The translations under genes and the position numbers were made by a program. A stretch of DNA of 64,000 nt from contig CACJMO010000004.1 of the NCBI GenBank assembly GCA_902594545.1, forward strand, positions 1 through 64,000, read 5' to 3'. How positions within the stretch are numbered: position 1 is the first letter of the stretch; each line of letters opens with the position of its first letter. Below are positions 7,809 through 54,296 of the stretch, piece after piece. A model generated the notes under the pieces. That model saw only the letters and a program-made list of their open reading frames with translations, was not told the origin of the DNA and made no database searches. This DNA is from an uncultured SAR86 cluster bacterium. GTDB lineage: Bacteria > Pseudomonadota > Gammaproteobacteria > Magnimaribacterales > Magnimaribacteraceae.

Positions 7809-7988
7809 AGTTTCCTGGTTTATACGATAGTTGTTACTACTCTCGAGCCGATAAAAAAATATTAGGAGACTCTGAAAAGTTCTTGTTGTGCATACCCATT
7901 TTATGGGAAGCCTGATAAATTGACGGAGTCACCGCCTTGAACTTCACGGTTCAGGGCAGTAATCAATAACGGTAATCTGGGAAACACC
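7809..7988 (+). ncRNA. ssrS: 6S RNA
   Basis: Binds the sigma70 RNA polymerase holoenzyme by mimicking an open promoter and down-regulates transcription in stationary phase. The segment CTCGAGCCGATA near 7842-7853 and the CACCGCCTTGAAC...GGTTCAGGGCAGTAATC stretch near 7930-7964 are close to the conserved CTGAGCCGATA and CACCTTGAACC...GGTTCAAGGGTTACAGCC of E. coli 6S RNA. The termini GTTTCC (7810-7815) and GGAAAC (7980-7985) pair to close the rod. Location between zapA and fau is the conserved one. Length about 180 nt fits; the exact 3' end is uncertain. Confidence 0.9.
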
Positions 7989-50049: not shown

Positions 50050-50646
50050 ATGAATACCCCCTTTCAGAATGCAAAGTTCGTGGGAAGCTTCCCATCTAAT
50101 GAAGATTTGCCTCTGGATGAAGGTTCGGAGATTGCTTTTTGCGGAAGATCTAACTGCGGAAAATCAAGCGTCCTCAATGCTCTTACAAATAATAAAAAAC
50201 TAGCAAAGACAAGTAAAACTCCTGGCAGAACGCAGGCAATAAATGTTTTTGAAATAGGCTCAGAGACCAATCTAAAAATAATTGATTTACCGGGTTACGG
50301 ATACGCAAAAGTATCAAAAAAAATGAGAGCTGAGTGGGGACAAGAGATTGAAGATTATTTGATGACCAGAAAAAGCCTAAAAGCTTTATGCATTATTATG
50401 GATATTAGACATCCGTTTAAGGACGATGACTTGAGGTTAATTGACTGGTGCGAGAGTAAAGATCTTCCAATGATACTCCTTCTGAATAAAGCAGATAAAT
50501 TATCAAAAAATAAAGCCTCGCAATCAGTTTTAAAAGCAGCTAAATATCTTTCAAGTCTCTCAACAAAACACTATGTCATAGCTACCTCTGCCACCGCCAA
50601 AACAGGGATAATTTCTTTAACAGAAAAAATAAATGAACTTAAATAA
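50050..50646 (+). CDS. yihA: Ribosome biogenesis GTPase YihA/EngB
   Basis: 198 residues. G1 GRSNCGKSSVL, G3 IDLPGYGYAKVS, G4 LLNKADKLS, and G5-like ATSATAKTG. TRAFAC-class GTPase needed for late large-subunit assembly. Divergent from cytochrome c4. Confidence 0.96.
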   Translation: MNTPFQNAKFVGSFPSNEDLPLDEGSEIAFCGRSNCGKSSVLNALTNNKKLAKTSKTPGRTQAINVFEIGSETNLKIIDLPGYGYAKVSKKMRAEWGQEIEDYLMTRKSLKALCIIMDIRHPFKDDDLRLIDWCESKDLPMILLLNKADKLSKNKASQSVLKAAKYLSSLSTKHYVIATSATAKTGIISLTEKINELK

Positions 50647-50682
50647 AAAAGCCCCGAACATTTGGGGTTGCTCGGAGCTTTA
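50642..50682 (-). terminator. Intrinsic terminator, stronger on the minus strand
   Basis: AAAGC-C-CCGA (50648-50657) pairs with TCGG-A-GCTTT (50672-50681) with one mismatch. Reading minus, the hairpin is followed by TTTTTT (50650-50645); reading plus, only TTTA follows. It can end engB weakly, but the U-tract shows it is built for a minus-strand transcript although no minus-strand gene lies upstream. The alternative inner stem CCCC/GGGG (50652-50655/50664-50667) is mutually exclusive. Confidence 0.6.
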
Positions 50683-50760
50683 TTGAAAGTTGGAGTTATT
50701 TGCTTTCATTTTTATAGACTACGAAAAAACCTAAAAGTTCAGTTTTTTATTTTTTATGTA
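50643..50760 (-). ncRNA. Candidate small RNA at the Spot 42/ErsA position
   Basis: The 183-base gap after engB holds a minus-strand arrangement typical of an sRNA: a stem-loop TGAAAG/CTTTCA (50708-50703 with 50689-50684) whose 13-base loop contains ACUCC, then the terminator hairpin and U6. In E. coli and pseudomonads an sRNA (Spot 42, ErsA) lies between engB and polA, convergent to engB, as here. The sequence is not recognisably Spot 42. The 5' end is uncertain: TATAAA at 50711-50716 would start inside the first stem, so a promoter nearer 50755 is possible. Confidence 0.35.
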
Positions 50761-50787: not shown

Positions 50788-51615
50788 ATTAGCAAAACAA
50801 GGTCATACATAATTCAAAAGTTTAGTAATTTGATTACGTTTGGTTCAAGCCAAAGAACCAGGACAAAGACATATGCGCGATTAGCGAATGCGTTTAAAGA
50901 AACTTATACCATAAAAACAGATAAAGGCTTGATTAACTTTAGAGTTGATTCACCCGGATCTGTTCCGCAAGATCCTGACTCTAATCGAAGTGAACCGGAA
51001 ACTTTTGAATGGATCAGAAGATACCTTAAGGCCGAAGAAGTCTTATGGGACATTGGAGCAAATATTGGTGTTTTCAGCTTGTATGCTGCTCTTAATAAAG
51101 AGAATAATGTTCTTTCTATTGAACCCTCCGCTGAGTCCTATGCAACCCTTAATGCAAATATACGACTTAATGGGCTCGATAAATATGTCAAAGCGCTTTG
51201 TTTTGCTGGCAGCGCAGATACCTGTGTGTTGGATTTATATATGAAAGATACGTCTTCAGGGGCTTCGCATAACAGCATAGGAACAAATACCAATCAATTT
51301 GGAAAATTTGAAGTTAATGGCTTTCAATCTATTGTGGCAATAACCCTCGATGATTTAAGCGAGGTAAAGGGAATACTATTGCCAAATCACATCAAGCTTG
51401 ATGTTGACGGAAGAGAGCTTGAGATACTTAAAGGATCATCAAAACTATTATTAACTATTGAAACCATTCTTGTAGAAATAGAGGGCAGTAATCGAGGTGA
51501 AAACCTAGAAGATATTGAAAATTTGTTGTCGAATGCTGGTCTAATTGAAGATACCGAATGGAGAGATAAGGGCTCGGGAAGGAACAGACTGTACAAAAGA
51601 GATAGAAATTTATGA
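50788..51615 (+). CDS. FkbM-family methyltransferase, probable ATT start
   Basis: SAM methyltransferase with DIGANIGVFSLYAA (SAM motif I), SIEPSAESYATLNANI, and IKLDVDGRELEIL typical of FkbM. Substrates in the family are sugar or lipid hydroxyls and amides; unknown here. The first standard start is TTG at 50830 with no ribosome site. A GAGGA Shine-Dalgarno at 50776-50780 lies 7 bases before an in-frame ATT at 50788 (after the stop at 50782), giving 275 residues beginning (M)SKTRSYIIQKF, so I use ATT. Stop overlaps the polA start (ATGA). Unusual insertion between engB and polA. Confidence 0.8.
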   Translation: MSKTRSYIIQKFSNLITFGSSQRTRTKTYARLANAFKETYTIKTDKGLINFRVDSPGSVPQDPDSNRSEPETFEWIRRYLKAEEVLWDIGANIGVFSLYAALNKENNVLSIEPSAESYATLNANIRLNGLDKYVKALCFAGSADTCVLDLYMKDTSSGASHNSIGTNTNQFGKFEVNGFQSIVAITLDDLSEVKGILLPNHIKLDVDGRELEILKGSSKLLLTIETILVEIEGSNRGENLEDIENLLSNAGLIEDTEWRDKGSGRNRLYKRDRNL

Positions 51616-54296
51616 GCGAAGATCAAGACCCGATAATATTAGTAGATGGATCGTCTTATCTCTATCGTGCTTATCATGCCCTTCCACCGCTAACCACAAG
51701 CAAAGATCAACCTACAGGGGCAATAAAGGGAGTAATTAGTATGATTAAAAAAATACTAATCGACCACCCGCAAAGCCCTCTTGCTGTTGTATTTGATGCT
51801 AAGGGAAAAACATTCAGACATGACATGTACTCTGAATACAAAGCAAATAGACCGCCGATGCCAGAAGATCTTGTGAAACAGATACAGCCAATTCATGACA
51901 TTATTTCCTTGATGGGCATAAAGCTAATTATGGTCTCTGGTGTTGAGGCTGATGATGTAATTGGAACGCTTGCAGAACAAGCGAGACAAAAAAAATTAAA
52001 TACAGTCATATCAACAGGTGATAAAGATATGACTCAGCTGGTTTGCGAAAATGTCAGTGTGGTAAATACTATGTCAGGAGAACTGCTGGACGAAAACGGC
52101 GTTTTAACAAAGTTTGGTGTCGGGCCAAATCTTATTACCGACTATTTAGCTCTTATTGGTGATAAATCAGATAACGTACCTGGAGTAGATAAAGTTGGTC
52201 CAAAAACCGCCGTAAAATGGCTTCAAGAATATGGAGATATTGAAGGAATTATAAATAATGCTGAATCGATAGGAGGAAAAGTCGGGGAAAATTTAAGAGC
52301 TTCTATAGAGACTCTTGATCTGGCACACGAACTTGTAAAGATTAAAACAGATGTTGATCTTGAACTAGGAATAGAAGAATTAGAGGTAGGCGAACCCAAT
52401 TTGGAAGAGCTATCTAAGATTTACAAAGAACTAGAATTTAATGCCTGGCTGCAAGAAGCGCCCCAAAAGCAAGTTGTTTCCAGAAATGTAAAAAATTCCT
52501 ACAAATGCATAACAACCAAAGAAGAGCTTAAAAAACTTATAAAAGATGCTACCAAGGCAGAGACTGTCGCTATTGATACAGAGACAACTGGTTTGGATTA
52601 TATAGACTCAGAATTGGTCGGTATTTCTCTAAGCTTCAAAGCTGGAGAGGGTTTTTATATTCCTATAGGCCACAAAGATGATTCGACCCCTCAACTAGCT
52701 ATAGATTATGTTCTAGATGAACTAAAGCCACTCTTAGAGAGCAATGACAAGAAGTTTATTGGTCAGAACATTAAATTTGATAAAAATGTTTTATCAAAAT
52801 ATGGCGTAGATATCTCCTCTATAAAAAATGACACAATGATGATGAGCTATGTTCTTGATGCTTCCGCTACAAGACATAACCTCGATGCTTTGGCCTCTTT
52901 TTATTTAGGATACAAAACATCAACTTTTGAGGAAGTTGCAGGCAAGGGAGTGAAACAAATTACTTTTGACCAAGTGCCAATTGAGGCTGCTACAAATTAT
53001 GCCGCTGAAGATGCTGACATTACTTTGAGGCTATACGATGAGCTAAGTCCTAAACTAGAAAGCATCGACTCTTTAAATAAGCTCAATGAAGAAATAGAGA
53101 TTCCCCTCATAGAGGTTCTATCGAATATGGAGAGGAATGGAGCTATTTTGAATGCAAAAATACTAAACGCTCAATCTAAAGACCTGGAATCAAGAATAAA
53201 GAAACTTGAGAAGAAGGCTTATAAAATTGCTGGAGAGGAATTTAATCTTGGATCAACTAAACAATTAAGGGAAATCTTTTTCGAAAAACTGGGTTATAGG
53301 GTCATTAAGAAAACTCCTGGAGGGCAGCCCTCAACTGATGAAAAGGTTTTGGCAGAGCTAGCAGAAGAGTATGAATTACCAAAGGTTTTACTGGAGCATA
53401 GAACTTTAAGTAAACTCAAATCTACCTATACAGATAAATTGCCAGATCAAATCTCATCTTTGTCAGGAAAAGTGCATACTTCGTTTCACCAAGCTGTCAC
53501 TACCACCGGGAGATTGTCCTCTTCAGACCCAAACTTACAAAATATTCCTATCAGAACAGAAGATGGCAGAAGGATTAGACAGGCATTTGAGCCCTCTAAA
53601 GGCAATAAATTCATCTCTGCAGATTATTCACAAATAGAACTCAGGGTAATGGCTCACCTATCAAAAGATCCAGGCCTGCTTTCTGCATTTCAAGATGGAG
53701 AAGATATTCACAGTAAAACAGCTAGCGAAGTTTTTAATGTAGGTATTGATGACGTAACCCCTGACTTAAGAAGAAATGCTAAAGCAATCAACTTTGGACT
53801 CATTTACGGAATCTCCGCATTTGGATTAGGCAAGCAACTTGGCATCACAAGGAATTTAGCTGCTGAATATATGGCAATGTATTTTGAAAAATATCCAAGA
53901 GTTAAAAAATACATGGAATCTACTAAAGAATCTGCCAGTCAAAACGGCTATGTAGAAACATTATTCGGAAGAAGGCTATACCTTCGAGAAATCAATGCCA
54001 GTAATGCAATGAGAAGGCAGGCATCTGAAAGAGCAGCTATCAATGCACCTGTGCAGGGCACTGCTGCCGACATCATGAAAATTGCCATGATAAAAATGCA
54101 CAAATCGCTTGAAAAAGAAAAAAGTCAGGCACAGATAATTCTCCAAGTTCACGATGAACTGATTTTGGACACGCCCGAAAAAGAGATAGATAAAGTTGTT
54201 AATTTAACAACTGAAGCAATGATGGGTGCAGCTCAACTTGATGTTCCATTAGAAATTGATATTGGAATTGGAGATAATTGGGATCAAGCTCACTGA
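51612..54296 (+). CDS. polA: DNA polymerase I
   Basis: 894 residues, three domains. The 5' nuclease (about 1-290) starts ILVDGSSYLYRAYHALPPL. The 3'-5' exonuclease is intact: Asp/Glu in AIDTETTGLDYI, NIKFDKNVL, and YAAEDADITLRL. The polymerase has motif A DYSQIELRVMAHLS, motif B RRNAKAINFGLIYG and motif C LQVHDEL. Coupled to the FkbM gene by ATGA and to dsbB by a one-base overlap. Confidence 0.97.
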   Translation: MSEDQDPIILVDGSSYLYRAYHALPPLTTSKDQPTGAIKGVISMIKKILIDHPQSPLAVVFDAKGKTFRHDMYSEYKANRPPMPEDLVKQIQPIHDIISLMGIKLIMVSGVEADDVIGTLAEQARQKKLNTVISTGDKDMTQLVCENVSVVNTMSGELLDENGVLTKFGVGPNLITDYLALIGDKSDNVPGVDKVGPKTAVKWLQEYGDIEGIINNAESIGGKVGENLRASIETLDLAHELVKIKTDVDLELGIEELEVGEPNLEELSKIYKELEFNAWLQEAPQKQVVSRNVKNSYKCITTKEELKKLIKDATKAETVAIDTETTGLDYIDSELVGISLSFKAGEGFYIPIGHKDDSTPQLAIDYVLDELKPLLESNDKKFIGQNIKFDKNVLSKYGVDISSIKNDTMMMSYVLDASATRHNLDALASFYLGYKTSTFEEVAGKGVKQITFDQVPIEAATNYAAEDADITLRLYDELSPKLESIDSLNKLNEEIEIPLIEVLSNMERNGAILNAKILNAQSKDLESRIKKLEKKAYKIAGEEFNLGSTKQLREIFFEKLGYRVIKKTPGGQPSTDEKVLAELAEEYELPKVLLEHRTLSKLKSTYTDKLPDQISSLSGKVHTSFHQAVTTTGRLSSSDPNLQNIPIRTEDGRRIRQAFEPSKGNKFISADYSQIELRVMAHLSKDPGLLSAFQDGEDIHSKTASEVFNVGIDDVTPDLRRNAKAINFGLIYGISAFGLGKQLGITRNLAAEYMAMYFEKYPRVKKYMESTKESASQNGYVETLFGRRLYLREINASNAMRRQASERAAINAPVQGTAADIMKIAMIKMHKSLEKEKSQAQIILQVHDELILDTPEKEIDKVVNLTTEAMMGAAQLDVPLEIDIGIGDNWDQAH

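Follow-up and report, generated by a model that had tools for sequence, protein, structure and literature searches.

On comparative sequence evidence, a small RNA gene on the minus strand directly behind engB in SAR86 bacteria is real and conserved. Its product probably acts in trans as part of the sigma-E (RpoE) regulon, with its terminator loop blocking the translation of TonB-dependent receptors without Hfq or ProQ. Computational analysis of the window (the whole 64,000-nucleotide stretch of DNA that was analysed) and of related genomes showed the gene, its promoter type and strand, a stem and a loop that are conserved, and an enrichment of the loop complement at receptor starts. SAR86 is a marine lineage that is widespread and for the most part uncultured, and its genomes carry many TonB-dependent receptors. 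An RNA that, under stress control, curbs some of these receptors at a single ribosome-binding motif would, if true, give a first regulatory handle on them.

The RNA gene facing engB

The initial annotation had proposed a candidate small RNA at 50643-50760, having noticed a minus-strand terminator with a U6 tract behind engB and no minus-strand gene for it to end. Both observations hold: a stem of 13 pairs (50681-50648) runs into U6 at 50650-50645 directly behind engB, and the ORFs of the window include no minus-strand gene upstream of it. The stem-loop described upstream of the terminator is also present, as the hairpin UGAAAG...CUUUCA showing ACUCC at about 50696-50692. Compared with dinucleotide shuffles, the folding of the 118-nt stretch gave z = -3.9 and that of a 69-nt core z = -5.2; the AT-rich upstream third of the stretch is promoter and flank, not RNA. 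The predicted RNA has a 3' end that overlaps the engB stop codon. The features of the locus are:

50735-50741, minus strand: -35 element TGAACTT of a sigma-E (RpoE) type promoter; NGAACT-N16-GTC in 29/29 SAR86-family loci with identical spacing, motif also upstream of rpoE
50714-50719, minus strand: -10 element GTCTAT of the sigma-E type promoter; GTC invariant in alignment A1
50645-50708, minus strand: predicted small RNA of about 64 nt with two hairpins; start placed from the -10 element, end from the U tract
50684-50708, minus strand: hairpin 1 (UGAAAG/CUUUCA) with loop ACUCC at 50692-50696; in each genus but shifting
50648-50681, minus strand: hairpin 2, the intrinsic terminator stem of 13 pairs; covariation and G-U strand asymmetry
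50661-50668, minus strand: terminator loop ACCCCAAA, the proposed seed; core CCCCAA kept in 29/29 SAR86-family loci while the stem varies
50645-50650, minus strand: U6 tract of the terminator, read in the sequence
50050-50646, plus strand: engB/yihA, the convergent neighbour (TIGR03598, 225.7 bits over cut-off)
50830-51615, plus strand: FkbM-domain methyltransferase gene between the RNA and polA (PF05050)
51612-54296, plus strand: polA, DNA polymerase I (TIGR00593 / NF004397)

The same window also carries a 6S RNA gene (7809-7987, plus strand, 82.5 bits).

Conservation, strand and promoter

The comparison set consisted of 29 engB loci from the SAR86 family of the window's genome. The strand convergent to engB carries NGAACT-N16-GTC with identical spacing in all of them, and this is followed in 29/29 loci by 60-100 nt with hairpins and then by a terminator-like stem. 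Across 21 aligned sequences, 99.6% of the cells of the terminator stem are paired, changes on both sides occur at five pairs, and the covariation score is 0.345 compared with 0.212 after shuffling; the stem is thus conserved between related genomes, a point on which the initial annotation had made its proposal depend. Among the 273 cells there are 27 G-U wobbles on the minus strand and no A-C. As these wobbles would become A-C mismatches if read as the plus strand, the RNA is on the minus strand; a stem on the plus strand would be mismatched in 18 of the 21 sequences.

The core of the terminator loop, CCCCAA, stays constant across genera in which the stems and hairpin 1 differ. Hairpin 1 is found in most genomes, but its position shifts, 75% of its cells are paired within the genus, and its loop is not conserved beyond the genus. 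The proposal that ACUCC serves as an anti-Shine-Dalgarno seed was therefore dropped, since loop 1 varies even within the genus and is without a C-run in genera g4 and g5, and the terminator loop core is the likelier seed. In genus g2 (L025-L028), the conserved hairpin and a strong sigma-E promoter are present with no U tract behind the hairpin, so termination there must differ.

A covariance model of the family (R1), of the kind the initial annotation had suggested building from relatives, matches the window at 50644-50741 with E=9e-16, the window sequence itself being in the model, and finds 27 family genomes. Independent matches were obtained in six more genomes, from SAR86 family f3, at E values of at most 3e-4. 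Those in G042, G045 and G051, the three with known engB coordinates, adjoin engB.

The sigma-E consensus is GGAACTT-N16-GTCTAA. Upstream of rpoE in these genomes stands (A/T)GAACTT-N16-GTCTAT, within a stretch (GAACTTTGGATTGAAATTCGGGTCTAT) whose boxes and spacing agree with those at engB in nearly all family members. RpoE was found in 34/41 genomes, most of the matches falling below the strict cut-off of the model yet aligning over the full length, and the gene order in the window's genome is rpoE-rseA-degP. By chance the promoter string would occur about 1.5 times per 64 kb in one genome; the evidence is therefore its fixed place in 29 loci and not its mere presence. Taken together, the conserved sigma-E-type promoter, the covarying, strand-specific stem and the near-invariant loop argue for the small RNA gene that had been predicted on the minus strand at the position of ErsA.

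Predicted targets and mode of action

Prediction of targets pairing with ACUCC had been suggested as a check; the start sites of receptors favour TTTGGGG instead, which corresponds to the loop complement UUUGGGG. This motif was sought 2-25 nt before start codons, and 291 non-receptor genes, taken from the window and from 20 stretches sampled in G004, served as controls. It was found at 4 of 10 TonB-receptor genes in the window's genome and at 4 of 18 in G004 (8/28 in total) compared with 0/291 control starts (Fisher p = 1.3e-9, a pooled value that overstates independence, as the two genomes share orthologues). When the receptors of the window's genome were compared with the window's own genes, p was 2.7e-4. 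The SAR86 genomes examined have 10-20 plug domains each.

An unbiased search of the window's whole genome for TTTGGGG-N2-10-ATG returned 35 matches, 30 of which were fetched. Five of these lie at plausible gene starts, belonging to three beta-barrel receptor proteins, a DUF3604 protein and a beta-lactamase-fold protein. The other fetched matches are internal or without an ORF. A fourth receptor start, that of the gene at L215, which was identified by its Plug domain, is among the matches outside the 30. Eight receptors selected in the same way in relatives fit the pattern, and Pfam checks were made on five of these; the raw genus-wide tally was excluded as evidence because most of its matches lie inside genes.

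Receptors of genera g4, g5 and g7 often have TTTGGGG or TGGGG sites, and in genus g2 the seed was found in only two receptor genes. The test of co-evolution across other SAR86 families was mixed. Family f3 was negative, with a TTGGGG Shine-Dalgarno sequence at 0/10 receptors though the same RNA is present, and f2 gave one match; one f2 receptor gene has the 8-nt GGGGATAT at its Shine-Dalgarno position, the complement of a motif of the f2 small RNA itself (AUAUCCCC). Duplex energies at the eight seed-bearing receptor sites range from -11.1 to -13.3 kcal/mol, and the best control start reaches -10.9. With altered loops a weaker enrichment remains, which indicates that G-rich start sites contribute; the reversed loop used as an energy control still holds CCCCAA and so gave no contrast. 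As the seed is 7-8 bp within a G-rich Shine-Dalgarno sequence, a strong Shine-Dalgarno sequence common to these genes could account for some of the enrichment.

Hfq was found in 0/41 SAR86 genomes, a set in which 19 reach a completeness of 90% or more, and ProQ in 0/31, with the positive controls detected in both searches; G000 (71% complete) and G004 (95% complete) yielded neither protein. This makes contact through a preformed loop, as in Xanthomonas sX13, the likely mode of action.

We infer from these results that the gene is transcribed, that it depends on RpoE in vivo, and that its RNA pairs with and represses its targets. Envelope stress would free RpoE from an RseA-type anti-sigma factor, and RpoE would then transcribe, on the strand that faces engB, a short RNA with two hairpins. 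The RNA would stop at its own terminator, whose 8-nt loop would expose CCCCAA(A). In mRNAs that encode large TonB-dependent receptors, and in those of some other exported proteins, the loop could then pair with UUUGGGG where the ribosome binds. The pairing would block translation and lower the outer-membrane protein load. Neither Hfq nor ProQ would be needed if, like sX13, the RNA brings a preformed loop to a linear G-rich site, and a lineage in which neither protein was detected could serve as a natural test of chaperone-free riboregulation.

That the hairpin is merely the terminator of engB, perhaps a bidirectional one, and is conserved as such is extremely improbable. Its place immediately after the engB stop codon and its capacity to fold on either strand speak for this explanation, which the initial annotation had itself considered. 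However, the wobble asymmetry rules out a bidirectional terminator, and because of it engB termination cannot explain the conservation; the plus strand also has no U run, a convergent sigma-E-type promoter stands at fixed spacing, and termination does not require a conserved loop. We consider it very unlikely, too, that a sigma-E RNA has a mainly local role here, as an antisense RNA to engB or through interference by convergent transcription. The overlap of the RNA end with the engB stop codon, at a conserved position, would suit such a role, as would genus g2, where transcription could run into engB in the absence of a U tract. However, most genomes have kept a terminator that ends transcription at the engB stop codon, a similar sigma-E-type RNA occurs at a different locus in SAR86 family f2, and the conserved loop and its complementarity to receptors would be left unexplained.

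Another, unlikely possibility is that the sigma-E-dependent RNA has other targets, acting for example by general anti-Shine-Dalgarno repression or protein binding, and that the UUUGGGG sites of receptors are a separate translational feature. The enrichment of G-rich receptor starts beyond the exact complement is consistent with this, and so are the f3 receptors without a TTGGGG Shine-Dalgarno sequence. On the other hand, the T-run that precedes GGGG matches the A-run of the loop, TTTGGGG is absent from all the controls, and the sequence flanking the sites is not kept from one paralogue to another.

Distribution and known small RNAs

The initial annotation had placed the gene at the Spot 42/ErsA locus because of its synteny with engB and polA. 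In the window, the convergence on engB stands, but an FkbM-type methyltransferase gene comes before polA, and polA points the other way. The order polA > RNA > < engB, which is exactly the Spot 42/ErsA arrangement, was found in f3 SAR86. At engB, other SAR86 genera combine a sigma-E-type promoter with a hairpin whose loop is C-rich. The weak R1 matches in family f2 are a different sigma-E-type RNA, located behind a prepilin-peptidase-like gene and carrying the motifs AUAUCCUC and AUAUCCCC. This f2 RNA (L093-L100, e.g. L100:1055-1160, minus strand) has a conserved GACCUUUGAAUAUCCUCUU...UUCAUAUCCCCUAGGUC and a terminator. A third candidate RNA with a sigma-E promoter was seen in f4 SAR86 (L101, L103) at yet another locus, with the hairpin AUCGACAUCCUCACUCGAU and a terminator.

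A sigma-E-type promoter running convergent to engB was also found in many Alteromonadaceae, with none on the opposite strand or within engB. Behind it comes an RNA about 70 nt long, in which a UAUGUGUUUUCUCU segment is shared. This candidate RNA, which is undescribed, has a conserved UACGGUUUUUAUGUGUUUUCUCUCAGUCCU (L392-L440, downstream of engB, minus strand). Aliagarivorans (L394) has the Rfam Spot 42 beside a separate RNA with a sigma-E-type promoter, showing that these are two genes; a Spot 42-like sequence also lies beside the sigma-E-type RNA in Salinimonas (L416).

In a class-wide sample of 40 loci, the promoter was convergent to engB in 13 and on the opposite strand in 1, with 0.7 expected. 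Most of these promoters stand before multi-hairpin RNAs that show CUCCCUCCCUG and CCCCAAG loops. These RNAs score against the anti-hemB model (RF02837) and, weakly, against the ErsA, sX13 and ar7 models, mostly below gathering. Such multi-hairpin RNAs were located in other gammaproteobacterial families at L442, L456, L458, L460, L467, L471, L472, L477 and L478. The anti-hemB, ErsA, sX13 and ar7 families of Rfam may belong together. It is about evenly balanced whether a sigma-E-controlled small RNA with a C-rich loop facing engB is an ancient gammaproteobacterial feature that has diverged in sequence but persisted in SAR86, Alteromonadaceae and many other families. ErsA, sX13 and the SAR86 RNA would then be local versions and Spot 42 a separate neighbour, and the RNA of SAR86 would have become a minimal form, able with its one loop and no known RNA chaperone to control many TonB receptors at once. 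The authors of the sX13 study asked whether polA loci elsewhere encode structurally related small RNAs that act similarly (PMC3771888), and both the SAR86 case and the 13/40 class-wide loci bear on that question.

Rfam scans of the window and relatives gave only weak, terminator-driven matches to unrelated families. Spot 42 (RF00021) had no match at gathering or permissive thresholds, ErsA / Pseudomon-1 (RF01719) had none in SAR86 up to E=5, and sX13 (RF02232) had none in SAR86; the RNA is therefore placed in none of these families. This agrees with the lack of resemblance to Spot 42 that was noted at the outset. Both RNAs are convergent to engB and near polA (with the exact polA-engB placement in f3 SAR86), but identity with Spot 42 was rejected as there is no Rfam match and the real Spot 42 elsewhere sits beside a separate sigma-E-type RNA. 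The Pseudoalteromonas Pf1 small RNA, another candidate, is a Csr RNA and unrelated.

The SAR86 RNA shares a sigma-E promoter with the sigma-E small RNAs that repress outer-membrane proteins, its own repression being predicted from complementarity. FoxI/FoxJ of Fusobacterium, which are sigma-E-dependent, have a cytosine-stretch seed and repress an abundant outer-membrane protein (PMC11005410), differ from it in phylum, locus and sequence, and are alike in regulon logic. ChvR of Caulobacter is similar in target class, as it represses a TonB-dependent receptor independently of Hfq, but it is under two-component (ChvI-ChvG) rather than sigma-E control and has one target with two pairing sites, one of them with 12 bp (PMC6237742). 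ErsA of Pseudomonas lies between polA and engB, is controlled by an envelope-stress sigma factor and represses the porin gene oprD; it is 132 nt long and Hfq-dependent on oprD (PMC8575079, PMC7264166, PMC5819304). The SAR86 RNA appears to share with it the polA-engB locus and a sigma22/RpoE-type promoter, whose motif is identical to that upstream of rpoE, but it is about 64 nt long and no Hfq was found in the SAR86 genomes searched. sX13 adjoins polA, is 115 nt long with three C-rich loops, and represses mRNAs with GGGG near the start codon independently of Hfq; its reported targets are pili, chemotaxis and hfq, not receptors (PMC3771888). The SAR86 RNA, at about 64 nt, has a single conserved C-rich loop, in the terminator (29/29 loci), and a 4G motif near the starts of its predicted targets (8/28 receptors vs 0/291, a statistical likeness only). 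To summarise, the SAR86 RNA resembles ErsA in position and promoter and sX13 in loop chemistry, target motif and Hfq independence, and probably works most like sX13, but under sigma-E control.
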